A DNA stretch of 64,000 nt from Coleofasciculus sp. LEGE 07092. GTDB taxonomy: Bacteria; Cyanobacteriota; Cyanobacteriia; Cyanobacteriales; Coleofasciculaceae. A program made the position numbers and the translations under genes. The DNA lies in assembly GCF_015207375.1 (NCBI RefSeq), contig NZ_JADEWY010000001.1:1-64000 (forward strand). Direction: 5' to 3'. Under the pieces are notes generated by a model, which did not search any database, was not told the origin of the DNA, and worked only from the letters and a program-made list of their open reading frames with translations. Positions 12,110 to 43,728 of this stretch are shown one piece after another. The first letter of the stretch is position 1. Each line of letters begins with the position of its first letter.

Positions 12110-13162
12110 TCACTCATAGGTTGTACCATTCGGCATAATTGCCCCTTTTAAAGAAGCCTCTGTCAAATTGGCTCCTGTCAAGTTGGCTCCAATCAAGTTA
12201 GCTTCACTTAAATTAGCCTCGTTGAGATTAGCTCCAGTGAGATAAGTGAGGAGCAAGCCCGTTCGTAGCAGATTAGCTTGACTTAGGTTCGCATCCTGCA
12301 AGTTTGCCTCCAGCAGATTGGCACCGATTAAATTGGCTTTGTACAAGTTAACCTTGTAAAGATTAGCTTTGCTCAAGTTACTTCCCCGCAGGTTAGCCTT
12401 TTTCAAGAACGCTCCCTTCAGGTTGGCACCACTGAGATTAGCATTACTAAGGTCTGCGCTATTAAGGTTGGCACCACTGAGATTAGCATTACTAAGATCT
12501 GCGCCATTAAGGTTAGCATCACTGAGATTAGCATTACTAAAGTCTGCTTCTTTCAAGATAGCTTCACTCAAGTCGGCACTCTCTAAGTTAGCATCCCGCA
12601 AGTCTACTCGATGCAAATAGGCTCGGATCAAACTAGCTCCACTCAGGTTGGCTCTCCTTAAATCTGCTTCACTGCAAATTGTACGATTCAGTGTTGCCTT
12701 TCTCAAGTCAGCATCCTTGAAAATTGCTCGACTCAAGGTTGCCCCAGTCAAGTTCGCCTTGCTCAATTTTGCCCCTTTTACCCGAGCACCAATCAGACTG
12801 CTGCCAATCAAAACAGCAACCTTTAGATCTGCCTCTGATAAAGTAGCACCGCTGAGGATAGCTCCACTCAAATTGGCTTCAATCAAGATTGCCCCCGTCA
12901 GATCAGCTTGGGAGAGAGTGGTTTCGATTAATTGGGCGCTTTTGAGATTGGCAACCCTCAAATCTGCATCCTTAAGATAAGCGCCAATGAGTTTAGCTTT
13001 TGTTAAATTTGCCCCCTTCAGATGAGCGGCACTTAAATTGATCCGATTCAGATTAGCTTCACTTAAATCGGCTCCAATAAGGTTGGCTCCAGAAAAATTA
13101 CGTTCTCCTGTTTCGTGCCGATTCAAAAGTTCGGCTTTACTTAAAAATTCACTTGCTTTCAT
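12110..13162 (-). CDS. pentapeptide-repeat protein (nearly all repeat)
   Basis: 350 residues. After SKAELLNRHETGERNFSGAN, almost the whole chain is A(N/D)LxxA/S pentapeptides, about 60 units, predicting a long beta-helix rod. Residues about 217-262 derive from a 45-bp DNA unit repeated three times (12421-12465, 12466-12510, 12511-), showing recent in-frame expansion. No signal peptide or membrane segment. Ends IMPNGTTYE, the usual capping motif of this family. Function unknown; single-gene transcript with its own terminator. Confidence 0.9.
   Translation of the reverse strand: MKASEFLSKAELLNRHETGERNFSGANLIGADLSEANLNRINLSAAHLKGANLTKAKLIGAYLKDADLRVANLKSAQLIETTLSQADLTGAILIEANLSGAILSGATLSEADLKVAVLIGSSLIGARVKGAKLSKANLTGATLSRAIFKDADLRKATLNRTICSEADLRRANLSGASLIRAYLHRVDLRDANLESADLSEAILKEADFSNANLSDANLNGADLSNANLSGANLNSADLSNANLSGANLKGAFLKKANLRGSNLSKANLYKVNLYKANLIGANLLEANLQDANLSQANLLRTGLLLTYLTGANLNEANLSEANLIGANLTGANLTEASLKGAIMPNGTTYE
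12421..12547. repeat. 45-bp tandem repeat inside pentapeptide gene
   Basis: Two copies differ by two bases (GGTTGGCACCACTGAGATTA start each); a third, more diverged copy follows. 45 bp equals three pentapeptides, so expansion keeps frame and register. Confidence 0.85.
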
Positions 13163-37313: not shown

Positions 37314-40300
37314 CTAGGAGGTGGGTTGCTGCTCTGGAAGCATACATTTGTCAGAATCACAGCCAGATGGACCTGCCTCTATCAATTCACCAGAGTCATA
37401 TTTACTCAGTGCTGCACGAAAATCCTCCGTTTTGCGCCGGACTTGAACGTCTTGCATGAGTTGCTCGTAGGTAAGTTTATCGACGGGCTCAAAGGGCAAA
37501 CGTGGGAAGGATTGATGATCATCAAACCGAGCTAACAGAGCGGCTGAGATGTATCCTTCGTCATTCTGAATAGCTTCGTAGATACGTTGAGCCAAAGGTT
37601 CGACTTCATGCGATCGCAATTCCCAAGTTGAGGAGGTATTGTGAGTGACATACCAGCGCTGAACTTGCAGCGAAAAGTCCATTTGTGCTAACGCCGAAAA
37701 CTGGCTGATATCAATCTCATCCGCTCCTGGTAAGTCCGCCCAAGGTACGGCAACAGGGATTTCCACCAGCCATTCTGAACAAGCCTCTAAAAAGGGATCA
37801 TTCAAAAGATGTCCGTTTTCATCCTTATCGGATTGAGAAGGAGTGACGTTGTAACCGTAGTCGAGACAAGCGAGGGCAACCGGATCATTTTTTCTGAAGG
37901 TGATCCGCCGGATAAACCGTTGGGCTTTCGGGGGATGCCATCCGGGAGATGCACTAGTAAGGAGGGATTTTGTACCCGAGGGTTGAACGGTTGTACAACG
38001 GTTGGGACGTTTGATACCTTGGCGATCGCAATACTCCCACACGACTCGATGCACAATGTCTCGCCAACGAGTCAGGTAGTCTTTCTCCTGTTCCTTAAAC
38101 TGCAATCCCTGTAAAGTTTCAGGGCGTCCCTCTTCCCACCAACGCAACCAATCAACGCCAAAGGCATTAACAAAAAAGTCAAATAAACCTGTAAAGGATA
38201 CGCCAACAATTGGATCAAGTTCGCGGCTGTACTGGTAGCGAGGCTCAAGAAATTTATGGTTGAGCAGTGCGGCTACAGAAAGCGCTCCGGCACTGAAGGC
38301 GTTTTCTTGTTCTTGGTAATTGTGTGGATCGATTTGGTTGAGGTGGATTTCTGCTAAATTGCAATGAAAATCTGAGCCAATAATTTCACCGCAGTTGTGC
38401 GCCACAATGCCATTCGCATCGAAGCGAGATGGACCAGGAACCGTGCAATCGTAAACGGATTCGATACTACCAGGTGAAACAGACTGAACTGTTACAACAA
38501 AACGTTCACGGTTGAGCTTACGTTTGTATCCATTTAATAAATTGCCTAACTTTTGGTGTTTCTCAGGCTGACGGAAATCAACGATATCCCGGAAGTAGGT
38601 CAAATTATCGTTAGCAATGACCAATTCGTGCTGCGCTTTACAGAAGTAAGGAGCCATATCGCGATTGGTATCAGGCATCAAACGATAGCCTGCCATCCGA
38701 CGATTTTGATAAACCGTCGAAACAATTCCTAAGCGAAGCAGCATCCGCTGAACAGCTTGCAGTAATTCGAGATTACTTTGGGCTAGACGCACACTAATGC
38801 CTTTATTCTGCGTTCCTTGCACGCTACCATCAGCATCGAACAAACCTTGTAATAATCCGCGATAAAACTCATAGCTGGCTTGCTCAACTTCGGGTGTAAC
38901 TACTTTTTGACCGCGATGAATATTGAACTGTGCTGCTAGTTTTGCCAGCCCACTGGAAGCAACTTGATGTAAATTGTGTTGGCGATGATAGTGACCTCCT
39001 AAATTAGCGCCGCAACTTACATTTTTCTGGAGAGTCGCTATTGCATACTCAGCTATCTCTGTTTGAGAGTCACCCTTCGGGTTGCTTCCTTGCCCGGAGG
39101 TAAACTCCGGGCACCAGCAACCCCAAAATCGCAATATTGTCTGGTCTTTCCATGCCGTTTCCGCTAGAGTCCCGTCACCGACAAGACTGCCGAGTAGCCA
39201 CCCTTCTTCAAAGGTTCCCACACCATGCCAAGGCTGAATTTCTCGGTGATTGTGCAAGCAAATGCGATCGCCCGGTTTCAAATGTTCAGCCGCTACCCAT
39301 TCGGTGTATTGATGCTTTTGGGTTTGAGCGCTGACTCGTAAAATTTGATGGTTTCCGGTCAAACGTAGCGAGAAACCTTCTTTTGTTGATAGGGTGAAAA
39401 CAGGGCGATCGCCTGTGTAAAAAAAGCCTTCAGCCGTTGTGCTAAAGAGTTCGCCGTTGACGTAGGTTCCATGTTGCTGACCGATTAAGTCTTTGACTTG
39501 ACGCGGACCAAACTCCGTATGTACCCAAGTATCACCAGTCACGCAGGGATTTAAACCTAAACGAGCTAACCGATGATCTAGCTCATCAGTAGGAAGGTTA
39601 GGATAATGGAGGTGTAACCACTCTTTAGCATTTTTTTGCTCATAAGCTTTTAAAAAGTCACGTTTCAACTCTAAAGTGGGTAGCAGATCGTAATTGGCTC
39701 TAGCTATAGCTTCTCCAGCCCATTGAATTGCACCTTCTCCAGAGTAGTATTGCTTGCGTACTGCATCAATACAATCTTGCAGGGAGGGTTTGTGGTGAAA
39801 AACTCGGGTATGATTTGCCATTCTGAGAGCATCGCGTTCGGGATCGATGCGCCAGTTACCCGCTTCATTTTGCTGCCATAGATTGTCTTTGGCATTAGCA
39901 AATACTTCATCGCTACTAGTACCCTGACGCATCCCTGCAGAACGACGCACGTTGCCTGCTACAACCACTACGGCTGCTTCATCAATTAATATGCAACATT
40001 CAACAGAATTTAATTGCCGCCCTACGGCTTTATTCAAAATAGCAGCACAATTCTGATAAAGTTCCGGCAACTTAACAGGATTAGCAACACCCCCAAAACC
40101 TTTTAACGGTTCTCCCGCAGCGCGGACATCGTTAATGTCTACCGAGACTTGAACCTCTCCAGAGAAATGCTCGTTAGTGGATAATTCTAGTAGGGTTTGA
40201 TAAGATTTGACCCAGCCTTGGCGAGAGTCTCCTACATAAATCGTGACTTGATTGCCCTCTATCTTAACTTCGGTTTTTTCACGACGGTTTTCGGGTGGAG

Positions 40301-40763
40301 TTGAGCCAAGCTCACCTTGCACCACTACATTGAGGCGATTGCGAATGGAGGGTAATTGGTTGATATATTTCGGTTCGAGGACAGCTCCTGTACCGCACCC
40401 CATCATCGCCAAATCCATCATCAGACCGAAGGAACGCCAGTCTACAACGTTGGTAGAGGTGCAATTGTATGCCCCGGAGAAGTTTTCTGGGCGTTCAATC
40501 CAGTCTGTACCGCCTACCCACATCCAGCGACCGGAGGGTAAACTTTTAAGTTGGCGCATCATTTGGTCAAGTAGGGCAGTTTCTTCCGGTGTTAGCTTAC
40601 CCAGTTCGCTCAAGCCGCGAATTGTGCGATCGCAGACCTCTGCCCAACTCTCACGACCCGTTGTTGTTCTGCGGCTGTAGGTTCTGAAAAATACTGGATT
40701 GGCGGCTGGTGCAGTTTCTGGAAAATCGCCGTTGAGGTGTTTTCGCTCAAGTTCTCGAACCAT
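37314..40763 (-). CDS. nrdJ: adenosylcobalamin-dependent (class II) ribonucleotide reductase with intein
   Basis: 1149 codons: N-extein residues 1-406, intein 407-790, C-extein 791-1149 (spliced enzyme about 765 aa). Extein landmarks: SGAYNCTSTNVVDWRSFG, MMGCGTGAVLEP, NVRRSAGMRQG, the active-site NPCGEI split by the intein (NP|C...N|CGEI), TTVQPSGTKSLL and a C-terminal Cys pair CDSDKC for thioredoxin. It reduces ribonucleotides for DNA synthesis with B12. The gene's first 47 codons and promoter are duplicated at 42008-42295. Confidence 0.96.
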   Translation of the reverse strand: MVRELERKHLNGDFPETAPAANPVFFRTYSRRTTTGRESWAEVCDRTIRGLSELGKLTPEETALLDQMMRQLKSLPSGRWMWVGGTDWIERPENFSGAYNCTSTNVVDWRSFGLMMDLAMMGCGTGAVLEPKYINQLPSIRNRLNVVVQGELGSTPPENRREKTEVKIEGNQVTIYVGDSRQGWVKSYQTLLELSTNEHFSGEVQVSVDINDVRAAGEPLKGFGGVANPVKLPELYQNCAAILNKAVGRQLNSVECCILIDEAAVVVVAGNVRRSAGMRQGTSSDEVFANAKDNLWQQNEAGNWRIDPERDALRMANHTRVFHHKPSLQDCIDAVRKQYYSGEGAIQWAGEAIARANYDLLPTLELKRDFLKAYEQKNAKEWLHLHYPNLPTDELDHRLARLGLNPCVTGDTWVHTEFGPRQVKDLIGQQHGTYVNGELFSTTAEGFFYTGDRPVFTLSTKEGFSLRLTGNHQILRVSAQTQKHQYTEWVAAEHLKPGDRICLHNHREIQPWHGVGTFEEGWLLGSLVGDGTLAETAWKDQTILRFWGCWCPEFTSGQGSNPKGDSQTEIAEYAIATLQKNVSCGANLGGHYHRQHNLHQVASSGLAKLAAQFNIHRGQKVVTPEVEQASYEFYRGLLQGLFDADGSVQGTQNKGISVRLAQSNLELLQAVQRMLLRLGIVSTVYQNRRMAGYRLMPDTNRDMAPYFCKAQHELVIANDNLTYFRDIVDFRQPEKHQKLGNLLNGYKRKLNRERFVVTVQSVSPGSIESVYDCTVPGPSRFDANGIVAHNCGEIIGSDFHCNLAEIHLNQIDPHNYQEQENAFSAGALSVAALLNHKFLEPRYQYSRELDPIVGVSFTGLFDFFVNAFGVDWLRWWEEGRPETLQGLQFKEQEKDYLTRWRDIVHRVVWEYCDRQGIKRPNRCTTVQPSGTKSLLTSASPGWHPPKAQRFIRRITFRKNDPVALACLDYGYNVTPSQSDKDENGHLLNDPFLEACSEWLVEIPVAVPWADLPGADEIDISQFSALAQMDFSLQVQRWYVTHNTSSTWELRSHEVEPLAQRIYEAIQNDEGYISAALLARFDDHQSFPRLPFEPVDKLTYEQLMQDVQVRRKTEDFRAALSKYDSGELIEAGPSGCDSDKCMLPEQQPTS
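38394..39545 (-). other. intein in nrdJ with LAGLIDADG homing endonuclease
   Basis: 384 residues. Splice junctions: Cys407 (LNP|CVTGDTWV) and His-Asn|Cys (GIVAHN|CGEI). Block B TGNHQILRV contains the TxxH-like residues. The two LAGLIDADG helices are GWLLGSLVGDGTL and LLQGLFDADGSV. Catalytic Asp of both helices are present, so the endonuclease could be active. Inserted at the most conserved point of the enzyme active site, as usual. It carries an in-frame palindrome at 39079-39123. Confidence 0.93.
39079..39123. repeat. 45-bp palindromic repeat inside the intein coding sequence
   Basis: GGGTTGCT (39079-39086) pairs with AGCAACCC (39116-39123), and TGCCCGGAG (39091-39099) with CTCCGGGCA (39105-39113). 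It is read in frame as GCWCPEFTSGQGSNP (residues about 547-562), an odd Cys/Trp/Gly-rich text within the intein. Same palindrome type as 19128-19151. Confidence 0.85.
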
Positions 40764-40911
40764 AGATAAAGTCTGTTGGATTATGACAAACCTTCACTAT
40801 ACGCGATTCCTCGATTGAGATGTAGTGGCAAATCTTGAAACATTAAAGCAGTTGCGCTAAATATAGGGCTTTAAAGAGCTAAAATTCAATGGTTCTTGCT
40901 CCTTGGCGATC
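40624..40911. repeat. 288-bp direct repeat, copy 1 (nrdJ 5' end, promoter, start of PPOX gene)
   Basis: Identical to 42008-42295 apart from four substitutions, with no indels (constant offset 1384). It contains nrdJ codons 1-47, the divergent promoter region and the first codons of the PPOX gene. The left end is at GTGCGATCGC and the right end at GGCGATC, both HIP1-type sites. Confidence 0.95.
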
Positions 40912-41167
40912 ACCCTCTCAGACCTCCCACGAGATTCGTTTGTAAGCCCTCTGAAATTTTCTTCAGGTAATGTGTGGGGGGTCTAGAGGGAACTGTAATC
41001 AAGTAATTAACCAGATGTTCCCGTGATCACAACTATAATAAACATCTCTAGAGATCTATTCTCCAGAGGTGTCTAACCCTTAGTCACTGGAATTTTGGGA
41101 ATCCCTATTAATTGCTTAGTTACTTAGGCATTTGTTGAGACGAGGGCATGGATTTTGGTGATAGAGC
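40764..41167. other. intergenic region with promoter copy and PPOX gene stub
   Basis: First half belongs to the 288-bp repeat; the rest is AT-rich with no gene. CTCTAGAG lies at about 41046-41053. Otherwise nothing seen. Confidence 0.5.
40889..40945 (+). pseudogene. 5' stub of duplicated PPOX gene
   Basis: MVLAPWRSPSQTSHEIRL: the first 7-8 codons match the intact gene at 42273 (MVLTPWRS), then the text diverges where the duplication ends at a GCGATC site and stops at 40945. Not functional. Confidence 0.8.
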
Positions 41168-41758
41168 CTATGGAGTCGGAGATTGTTGAGTAGCAGGTGC
41201 AGGTATTTGCGGTGAAGGATCTTCATTGTGTAGCTGTAGGACATTGATAACAATGACGATGCCACTCCCCCCTAGAGTAGCAATCGTGAGCGGTACGATT
41301 ACATACTGTATCCACCATCGGATATTCGGAAACTCCAACGTTGAACCCTTAAAGATTGCGCCTCGTTTTTTCAGGTCACGTCTGGTATCTCGTGAGAGTC
41401 CCGTAGAACCTTCAAATTGAGAACCTTGCACATTTGCACTACTCAAGTTGGTTCCGCTTAAGTTCGCGTTCCTCAAATCCGCTCTACGCAAGTCAGCACC
41501 GCTTAAGTCAGCACCGCTTAAGTCAGCACCGCTTAAGTCAGCACCACTTAATTGGGAATTTGGCAACTGAGTGCCACATAACTTAGCTTCTTTTAGGTTG
41601 GCTCCATATAGTTGAGCCTCCTGCAATTTAGCTCCATTTAGCTTAGTGTGGCTCAAATTGCAGCCATTAAATCTAATACCTCTTAGATTACAGTGACTTA
41701 GATCTTCATGGCTCAAATCGCGACCGCTATGGTCTTGAAGAATGTTTTTATTTTTCAT
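41168..41758 (-). CDS. pentapeptide-repeat protein with C-terminal membrane anchor
   Basis: 196 residues from ATG 41758 (17 more if 41809 is used). Pentapeptide block about residues 10-115, with four GADLS units from a 15-bp DNA repeat (41491-41550). A hydrophilic linker DTRRDLKKRGAIFKGS, then a membrane helix WWIQYVIVPLTIATLGGSGIVIVINVL (about 146-172) and a Pro/Gln tail. Found only in the 1.1-kb segment bracketed by the 288-bp direct repeats, so it is probably newly inserted cargo. Confidence 0.85.
   Translation of the reverse strand: MKNKNILQDHSGRDLSHEDLSHCNLRGIRFNGCNLSHTKLNGAKLQEAQLYGANLKEAKLCGTQLPNSQLSGADLSGADLSGADLSGADLRRADLRNANLSGTNLSSANVQGSQFEGSTGLSRDTRRDLKKRGAIFKGSTLEFPNIRWWIQYVIVPLTIATLGGSGIVIVINVLQLHNEDPSPQIPAPATQQSPTP
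41491..41550. repeat. 15-bp tandem repeat x4 in pentapeptide gene
   Basis: AGTCAGCACCGCTTA repeated at 41491, 41506, 41521 and 41536 (last copy one mismatch). It encodes identical pentapeptides; recent slippage expansion. Confidence 0.95.
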
Positions 41759-42272
41759 ACATCTTGGGATTAGGGGCTGATGAAGACCAAAATCCAGCAC
41801 AAGACCCAATATATAGTTTCTGCTGTGGCATTAAAGCCAACATATGCAATGATGGAAGTCTACTTTATGTGCCTGAGTTCGGCTGGATCTTCTGCTGGAT
41901 TCGGGCTTTCTACTGGTAATTGACGGGACAAAACCCTCTAGTCTAATAGAAATCTAGGTGGTTACTGTGCAGATTCAAAAAAAACCGCAGCAACAAAGCC
42001 ACGGCTGGTGCGATCGCAGACCTCTGCCCAACTCTCACGACCCGTTGTTGTTCTGCGGCTGTAGGTTCTGAAAAATACTGGATTGGCGGCTGGTGCTGTT
42101 TCTGGAAAATCGCCGTTGAGGTGTTTTCGCTCAAGTTCTCGAACCATAGATAAAGTCTGTTGGATTATGACAAACCTTCACTATACGCGATTCCTCGATT
42201 GAGATGTAGTGGCAAATCTTGAAAAATTAAAGCGGTTGCGCTAAATATAGGGCTTTAAAGAGCTAAAATTCA
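41759..42272. other. intergenic region, mostly duplicated nrdJ 5' end
   Basis: 41810-42007 shows nothing recognisable; 42008-42272 is copy 2 of the repeat, giving the PPOX gene its promoter. Confidence 0.6.
42008..42147 (-). pseudogene. nrdJ 5' fragment (47 codons), duplicated
   Basis: Reads MVRELERKHLNGDFPETAPA and on to VCDRT exactly as nrdJ, then diverges (SRGFVAAVFFESAQ) at the repeat edge and stops at 41962. No catalytic part. It retains the nrdJ promoter, so a short useless transcript is likely. Confidence 0.9.
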
Positions 42273-42295
42273 ATGGTTCTTACTCCTTGGCGATC
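42008..42295. repeat. 288-bp direct repeat, copy 2
   Basis: See 40624-40911. This copy joins the intact PPOX gene; copy 1 joins the intact nrdJ. The unit between equivalent points is 1384 bp. Confidence 0.95.
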
Positions 42296-42860
42296 GCTTC
42301 TATCTCGCGCCCTTCACCAAAACAGCAGCCTACCTTATGCGCGTTACTTCCAACTGGCAACCGTTCGCTCAGATGGGCGTCCGGCAAACCGTACCGTTGT
42401 TTTTCGCGGATTTTTCGGCGATACCAACCAACTGAAAATCATCACCGATGCCCGAAGCCAGAAAGTTAACCAAATCGAACACCAGTCTTGGGGAGAAGCT
42501 TGCTGGTACTTCCCCAAAAGCCGCGAACAATTTCGTCTCGCGGGTGAGCTAACCCTTGTCCGAGCAGATTATCCCGAACCGGAACTCAAAAACGCCCGTC
42601 AAACTGCTTGGCAAGACCTTTCTGACTCAGCTCGTTTGCAATTCGCTTGGCAACCTCATCCAGGAGAAGTGAGAACAGAAGACCAAGATGGTTTTTCGCC
42701 ACCCCTACCAGACCCAAAACAACCCTTACCGAATTTTTGTCTATTATTACTCAAACCGATACAAGTTGATCATCTACAATTGCGCGGCAATCCCCAAGAC
42801 CGATGGCTTTATTCCCAAAAGAGTAATGGGGAATGGTTGAAGCAAGCTGTTAATCCGTAG
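42273..42860 (+). CDS. PPOX-type FMN-binding flavoprotein
   Basis: 195 residues. Split-barrel pyridoxamine-phosphate-oxidase-like text: YFQLATVRSDGRPANRTVVFRGF (FMN-phosphate contacts), LKIITDARSQKVNQIEHQSWGEACWYFPKSREQFRLAGELTLV and a C-terminal LLLLKPIQVDHLQLRG ... RWLYSQKSNGEWLKQAVNP. This is the cyanobacterial/plant Alr4036-type group. Its substrate is unknown and true PNPOx activity is unlikely to be the main role. Originally divergent from nrdJ; now separated by the duplication. Confidence 0.88.
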   Translation: MVLTPWRSLLSRALHQNSSLPYARYFQLATVRSDGRPANRTVVFRGFFGDTNQLKIITDARSQKVNQIEHQSWGEACWYFPKSREQFRLAGELTLVRADYPEPELKNARQTAWQDLSDSARLQFAWQPHPGEVRTEDQDGFSPPLPDPKQPLPNFCLLLLKPIQVDHLQLRGNPQDRWLYSQKSNGEWLKQAVNP

Positions 42861-42865
42861 AGAAG

Positions 42866-42960
42866 AGAGGGAATGGGGAATAGGGAGTGGGGAATGGGGA
42901 CGCGGAGACACAGGGAATTTTTGAAGTGTTACTCATCTCTCCATCTTCCCCATCTCCCCC
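42866..42960. repeat. G-rich/C-rich dispersed repeat (empty MITE site inside)
   Basis: GGGAATGGGGAATAGGGAGT ... then TTTTTGAAGTGTTACTC and CTCTCCATCTTCCCCATCTC. It can fold into a long imperfect hairpin between the convergent PPOX and cysE genes. At 6061-6215 the same module is split by the 94-bp MITE. Confidence 0.65.
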
Positions 42961-43728
42961 CTAAATACCAGCGCCATCTAAAAATTGCTGAATATCTTTA
43001 TCTCGAATGCGGCAACTTTTGCTTGGGAAAGCAGCAGCCTCTAGGGAATCGCATTCTGAAGAGATAGCATGAACCAGAGAGTGGGTGGAAGACTGCTGAT
43101 TGGATAAATCTTGCACTTGTTGCTCGAGTGATTCAATCCGGTCTACTAATGCCCGAATTACGGTTGCTTCTGAATCGGGCAGACTCGCGTGTTCTAATGG
43201 GTTAACTCTAACGCCAGAACGGTAGACAACCCGACCGGGAACGCCCACTACCGTACAATCGGAGGGAACATCGCGCAACACAACTGACCCAGCACCGATG
43301 CGGACGTTGTTGCCGATTTGGATATTACCTAAAACTTTGGCACCAGCACCAATAACAGCATTTTCGCCAAGGGTTGGGTGCCGCTTGCCGCACTCCTTAC
43401 CTGTACCGCCGAGGGTGACGCCTTGATAGATGAGGCAGTAGTCTCCCACAATGGCAGTCTCTCCGACGACAACACCCATGCCGTGGTCAATAAAGACGCC
43501 CTTTCCAATCGTGGCACCGGGATGGATTTCAATACCCGTCACAAAGCGAGAAAACTGGGAAAGTAAGCGGGGAATGAAAGGAATGCCTACATTGTGGAGC
43601 CAATGAGAAAAGCGGTGAAAGAGCAGTGCCTGTAAACCGGGGTAGCAGAATAAAACTTCCAACCAGTTACGGGCGGCTGGATCGCGCTCGAAGATGATGC
43701 GGAAATCAGTAATAAAGGTAGATAGCAC
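42961..43728 (-). CDS. cysE: serine O-acetyltransferase
   Basis: 255 residues from GTG 43728 ([20 protein letters not shown]..., the usual start; a TTG at 43743 adds five residues). N-terminal helices then left-handed beta-helix hexapeptides ([78 protein letters not shown]). Catalytic His in FIDHGMG and Asp nearby. The last about 65 residues are an extra coiled-coil-like tail. Makes O-acetylserine for cysteine synthesis. Confidence 0.96.

Follow-up and report, generated by a model that had tools for sequence, protein, structure and literature searches.

How did a pentapeptide-repeat gene come to lie between two copies of the promoter region and start of nrdJ in Coleofasciculus sp. LEGE 07092? 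The question is raised by the first 64,000 nt of contig NZ_JADEWY010000001.1 (hereafter the window), in which nrdJ, encoding adenosylcobalamin-dependent ribonucleotide reductase, and the divergent gene of a PPOX-type flavoprotein are separated by an insertion with duplication of their intergenic region. Loci of this build recur in other Cyanobacteriales with quite different cargo, and in one genome the alleles of two strains are combined. The explanation that accounts best for these observations, with a probability of roughly 60%, is that exchangeable gene cassettes reside beside a duplicated nrdJ promoter and would be moved and homogenised by homologous recombination.

Anatomy of the duplicated nrdJ start

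The two copies of the direct repeat, R (40624-40911) and R' (42008-42295), are both oriented with nrdJ on the reverse strand, and align without gaps over 288 bp at an offset of 1384. They differ by substitutions at 40713, 40841, 40850 and 40898, which leaves 98.6% identity; the repeat search lengthens the pair to 300 nt at 97%, adding 12 poorly matching bases on the nrdJ side. R comprises the nrdJ promoter region, the intact nrdJ from its start through codon 46, and a PPOX stump (40889-40911, forward strand, with the start codon at 40889). R' comprises the same region, with a truncated nrdJ start, and adjoins the intact PPOX gene. A first-pass annotation of this DNA had described a gapless 288-bp duplication with four substitutions, containing the nrdJ start, the shared promoter region and the first PPOX codons, with copy 1 next to the intact nrdJ and copy 2 next to the intact PPOX gene. 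The alignment, the sequence and the open reading frames (ORFs) agree with this description, and with insertion accompanied by duplication, each copy adjoining one intact gene and holding the stump of the other. A TATAGT hexamer resembling a -10 element precedes the nrdJ start of R by about 35 bp (40796-40801, reverse strand), has its counterpart at 42180-42185 in R', and may serve as the nrdJ -10 element; the corresponding sequence was compared for seven genomes.

The cargo segment between the repeats (40912-42007) is 1096 bp long, and its only long ORF is a pentapeptide-repeat gene of 213 aa (41168-41809, reverse strand; Pfam PF00805, E-value 5.7e-32), for which an ATG at 41758 is the likelier start. 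The encoded protein has, as judged by eye, a hydrophobic C-terminal stretch, in line with the 1.1-kb segment carrying a membrane pentapeptide gene that had been noted earlier. The gene reads in the nrdJ direction, downstream of the second nrdJ promoter region, and is preceded by a leader ORF (41962-42147, reverse strand) of 61 codons, consisting of NrdJ codons 1-46, 15 others and a stop. Neither a transposase nor terminal inverted repeats were seen in the window cargo, and none of the latter was among the repeat pairs reported for the segment. The stretch from the leader ORF to the pentapeptide gene contains an inverted repeat (41782-41910) with 27-nt arms, 78% alike and 75 nt apart, which may form a hairpin.

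Direct repeats of at least 60 nt lying within 6 kb fall into only two families in the window, namely the nrdJ/PPOX repeat and an array of the pentapeptide type with internal repeats at 12150-12568. A search of the whole genome (296 contigs) with 40500-42400 returned its own place and six short matches. All six fall within the pentapeptide-coding part, so that the search detected no third repeat copy, and a dispersed-repeat origin was rejected for the window.

The flanking genes are nrdJ (37314-40763, reverse strand; TIGR02505, E-value 1.2e-216, with TIGR01443 and TIGR01445), which is interrupted by a LAGLIDADG intein at about residues 407-789 (PF14528, PF14890), and the PPOX-type flavoprotein gene of the Npun_F5749 family (42273-42860, forward strand; TIGR04026, E-value 9.9e-92; PF12766). 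An Rfam search of 40000-43000 at a relaxed threshold revealed no riboswitch; its only two matches, both below threshold, were to a plant microRNA model.

Recurrence and cargo in Cyanobacteriales

An uncultured Coleofasciculus metagenome-assembled genome of a different genus (G009) has the order nrdJ, repeat, related pentapeptide gene (60% in protein), repeat, and its nrdJ-side junction is the same as that of the window to within a base or two. The refuting condition named in the first-pass annotation, that relatives share the arrangement with diverged repeats, has a mixed outcome: the arrangement is present, with repeats that are 71-73% alike to those of the window but 97% alike mutually. This speaks for an older arrangement with copies kept alike, or for repeated insertion at one place, more than for one recent event in this strain. 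A single chance event in this strain, by tandem duplication or by the repair of a long staggered break that captured a stray fragment with no exchange system involved, would suit the 98.6% identity over 288 bp, the single place in the genome and an anatomy such as long staggered-break repair is expected to leave. However, the same nrdJ-side junction with a related pentapeptide gene in another genus, and the recurrence of the repeat frame elsewhere with other cargo, make such an event unlikely.

With the first 47 residues of NrdJ as the query, matches were obtained in 218 of the 388 genomes of the order. Eleven genomes contain two matches. In seven of them (G000, G009, G209, G288, G311, G364 and G386) the second lies close upstream; in G156, G168, G193 and G376 the second NrdJ-like start is on another contig and probably belongs to a second gene. 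R of G386, used as a genome query, matched two places each in G386, G288 and G009 and one in G051. Upstream DNA, short in some loci, was taken for 125 genomes, five of them chosen for their double match and about 93 of the 218 being left out, and for the best 80 of 273 named loci, which added 43 to the set. Duplications were called by self-comparison at an E-value of 1e-4. The start region of nrdJ has a copy upstream of it in 15 of the 125 loci and in 6 of the further 43, or 21 of 168 Cyanobacteriales loci, the weak cases among the 15 being G072 (42 nt), G384 (89 nt, 76%), and G375 and G320 (67-68%, about 220 nt apart).

Under a strict test (at least 100 nt, at least 82% identity, at least 250 nt apart), 16 of 162 nrdJ starts were positive. 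The control was 800 kb of sequence taken from four genomes with an nrdJ duplication of their own, in which 8 of 556 ORF starts were positive (Fisher P = 3e-6, which overstates the difference and is descriptive more than a strict test, because the nrdJ loci share ancestry). Of the eight control positives, one is an ORF of low complexity, and a single repeat pair in L351 is counted twice, at two ORFs.

Two places in the control stretches may show the same pattern. Direct repeats of 225 nt (91.6%) at L368:1052-2232 lie upstream of two small gene pairs, which look like VapBC and ParDE, and may be a second case of a duplicated promoter. A 149-nt repeat (94.6%) at L373:4937-6323, upstream of a gene that presumably encodes dihydrouridine synthase, occurs twice in that genome, with one copy overlapping a small ORF. 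L041:79-450 is a tandem 186-nt repeat within a 130-aa ORF of glycine-rich appearance. At L051 (G010:C454) the match to the nrdJ start is broken into three pieces within about 5 kb, as if introns or other insertions interrupted the first 150 codons.

The cargo of the duplicated loci is diverse. Pentapeptide genes are found in three genera of the window's family (G000, G009 and G008); Kastovskya adunca (G008) has two, recognised partly by eye, each behind a copied part of the nrdJ promoter region. In G209, G386, G288, G308 and G384, of the family of G209 (f33), the cargo is a PBECR-nuclease-like protein (Pfam E-value 1.4e-4 in G386, below the curated cut-off) with a 120-aa partner that belongs to no family, and the two are putatively a toxin and its immunity protein. 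The same pair stands beside nrdJ with no detected R' in G141 and G281, G191 contains a fragment of the nuclease-like gene and the partner, and in G311 the partner is located beyond the genome's own R'. Coiled-coil proteins with a DGDAICN-like tail are encoded in G311, G364, G301, G051, G072, L292 and L334, while L307 and L345 carry small proteins that belong to no family and L340 a fusion whose sole match, to a ribonucleotide reductase domain, is sub-threshold. The L294 cargo contains a CyanoTRADDas_TM domain (E-value 4e-13), that of a TRADD-N-associated membrane protein; TRADD-N proteins are treated, at least in part of PMC8195603, as components of conflict and immunity systems. The PADLOC defence models, run against six cargo proteins at an E-value of 0.01, gave two weak coiled-coil matches for one protein and nothing else.

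Of 15 loci tested, 7 (G311, L292, L294, L307, L334, L340 and L345) have cargo whose reading frame runs on from the copied NrdJ start; in the other eight the leader frame stops before the cargo. Different whole-gene cassettes are seen between species, and the siblings L292 and L294, with nrdJ genes 94% alike, carry different cargo. Since relatives hold quite different small genes in a similar frame, the front of nrdJ seems to be a spot at which varying passenger genes have repeatedly docked.

Within 2.5 kb upstream of nrdJ in the 168 loci, the DGDAICN-like tail occurs in duplicated loci only, one of them (G072) being weak. A search for this motif matched in 15 of the 388 genomes, once in each, and two of the matches (L396 and L397) are nrdJ places. 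Five others (L387-L391) are not tail proteins and lie in or beside what we take to be carboxysome-shell genes, and L386 has no tail ORF of at least 45 aa. The remaining seven (L392-L395 and L398-L400) are small cyanobacterial proteins ending in the motif, encoded away from nrdJ next to genes that are presumably hemC-like and methyltransferase-like, and no flanking repeat was detected within about 1.5 kb of them. The tail as the mark of a general element that copies gene starts was not borne out in the 388 genomes.

The site itself appears to be old. In many relatives and genera nrdJ and the PPOX gene are divergent neighbours; in the 125-locus set, PPOX is in reach in 40 loci that have no duplication, at 119-181 bp from the nrdJ ATG in 14 of them and within 250 bp in 17, and two genera of the window's family have it at 119 and 121 bp. 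Measured from the ATG of R', the PPOX start is at 126 bp in the window, 115 bp in G288 and 167 bp in G072, and R' therefore occupies the old place in these genomes.

Proposed exchange of the cassettes and other explanations

Eight genomes entered a tree of the repeat region with both copies, and the two copies pair with strong support in G000, G009, G209 and G386. The best match of R' is the R of its own locus in 13 of 17 cases, L345 being a tie. The G051 locus has mostly G276 alleles in R' (94.0% alike) and L322 alleles in R (98.0%), so that the alleles of two strains are present in one genome, and the DNA outside both repeats is like either relative. Siblings with a single repeat are L322 and G276 for G051, L305 for L307 and G380 for L334; in L307 and L334 one copy is partly diverged from the single-repeat sibling. 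Cassettes and nrdJ also disagree: between G288 and G308, nrdJ codons 60-130 agree to 95% and the cassettes only to 77%, whereas G308 and G281 are 82% alike in nrdJ and 88% in the cassette. Copy pairing, allele mixing and this disagreement together fit exchange by recombination and conversion.

Under such exchange, a gene cassette would be lodged in the short space between divergent nrdJ and PPOX and bracketed by the duplicated space with both gene starts. Both neighbours retain intact starts because the duplicated unit includes the whole intergenic region. The copied nrdJ promoter region would drive the cargo. Since the flanking repeats are homology arms to any genome bearing nrdJ, cassettes could enter, be exchanged and be lost by ordinary homologous recombination; gene conversion would keep the two copies alike, and recombination between R and R' would remove the cassette without a scar. 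The cargo may first have acquired its repeat through long staggered-break repair that captured foreign DNA, or through a circle joined by chance.

In addition to the shared ancestry of the loci mentioned above, the following points weigh against exchange by homologous recombination. The sample of loci is non-random, in view of the five picked for two nrdJ starts and the best 80 of 273 named ones. The tree leaves the copies of G288, G308, G364 and G311 unpaired, its bootstrap not having settled, and in G051, L307, L334 and L292 (the last a tie) R' does not find its best match in its own R. Relaxed selection, and not import, could account for the copy divergence in L307 and L334. The R' remnant of G384 is 75% alike to R' of G386 and 76-78% alike to either R, and adds no support. 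The conserved nrdJ/PPOX pair, found in many genera, is loose in G386, G384, G311 and G364, where 0.7 to 1.9 kb, including a DUF2887 gene, separate PPOX from the R' ATG, and absent in G009, where PPOX is not beside nrdJ. An empty site was not found in a close relative of the window, and G004, the nearest by repeat sequence, has an upstream N gap. Transfer, excision and expression are all predictions from sequence. Confidence in cassette exchange was trimmed because of the PPOX distances and the unpaired G311 copies.

The first-pass annotation had placed HIP1 octamers at both edges of the repeat. One lies in nrdJ codons C-D-R in R (40626-40633), with its counterpart in R' (42010-42017), and another in PPOX codons W-R-S-L (42290-42297), but copy 1 has none on its PPOX side. 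Unequal exchange or joining at these octamers would explain why they lie within 5 nt of both edges of the window's repeat and of the nrdJ-side edge of G009. When the 34 edges of 17 loci were compared with shifted edges, an octamer was within 5 nt of 5 edges against a mean of 1.8 (P = 0.03) but at only 2 edges each with tolerances of 0 and 2 (P = 0.23 and 0.36), with poorly refined edges in three gapped-alignment loci (G209, G311 and G288) counted as they stood. The octamers also occupy conserved codons: with or without a duplication, 135 of 168 loci have GCGATCGC at the nrdJ position, and 33 of 48 have it within the first 60 nt of PPOX. HIP1 support for the edges is borderline, exchange at HIP1 sites as a rule is weakly supported, and it is highly improbable that the duplication was made there.

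A site-specific mobile element for which the nrdJ start is the attachment site, and which brings its own replacement for the 5' end, would be in keeping with the constant site, the duplicated gene start and the partly conflict-type cargo. Neither a recombinase gene nor a constant attachment core was found: no recombinase is present among 12 cargo proteins scanned with Pfam (other cargo ORFs were not scanned), and the edges of the repeat are not constant. On the nrdJ side they range from a point ahead of the start codon (G008) to codon 83 or beyond (L340, where the search window ended), and at the opposite end between -101 and -240. The chance that such an element is responsible is very slight. 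Homing of an intein or intron in nrdJ might instead drive repeated break repair and thereby exchange of the upstream flank. The nrdJ frame is indeed interrupted or lengthened in 16 of 17 duplicated loci and 115 of 150 others, but the association has a Fisher P of 0.08 with the class judged from open-frame length only, and the window intein begins about 1 kb away from R, so we consider homing distinctly improbable.

Beyond cassette exchange as such, the nrdJ start may tentatively be viewed, at odds short of even, as a recombinational dock. With a copied core-gene 5' end, cassettes would bring along their own homology arms together with a promoter and a start codon, any nrdJ-bearing genome could take up, swap or lose passengers, several of them of conflict type, precisely and with no recombinase, and small passengers would be born as fusions to the NrdJ start. 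If so, genes could spread with no mobility gene of their own, a conserved core-gene front end serving as both homology arm and promoter. Scarless loss and exchange would be predicted, which population sequencing could test, and duplicated core-gene starts would provide a search rule for passenger and conflict genes elsewhere.

Comparison with known systems

Campbell-type insertion-duplication by a single crossover yields exactly the order R', cargo, R with both flanks intact. Insertion of a circle in this manner, proposed in the first-pass annotation, is possible as a mode of movement, but neither a plasmid nor a phage form of the unit was found: five plasmids match the pentapeptide-coding sequence only, and phage records gave no match. 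Transposon target-site duplication likewise places an insert between direct target repeats, which are a few bp long, whereas the nrdJ repeats of the strict set measure 112 to about 410 bp.

In the MafB polymorphic toxins of Neisseria, cassettes of toxin and immunity genes are thought to be exchanged by recombination (PMC4287609). Unlike MafB, as far as that account describes it, the nrdJ locus has no parent toxin, an unrelated core gene supplies the 5' end that is repeated, and the cargo is largely non-toxin. A literature search for a duplicated core-gene start with fused cargo found nothing in print, which is thin evidence. The minimal mobile elements of Neisseria are whole-gene cassettes between two conserved genes that are taken up by homologous recombination (PMC3082526). 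The nrdJ locus resembles them in having different whole-gene cassettes between two conserved genes. The allele mixing in G051 and the disagreement between cassette and nrdJ in G288, G308 and G281 may reflect homologous recombination. It differs from minimal mobile elements, as described there, in that the cassette is bracketed by the duplicated promoter region and first codons of a neighbour, and in that the cargo lies behind, or is fused to, the copied start. On the strength of that description, the minimal mobile element is the nearest known kind, to which the nrdJ locus adds a duplicated core-gene start and fused cargo.

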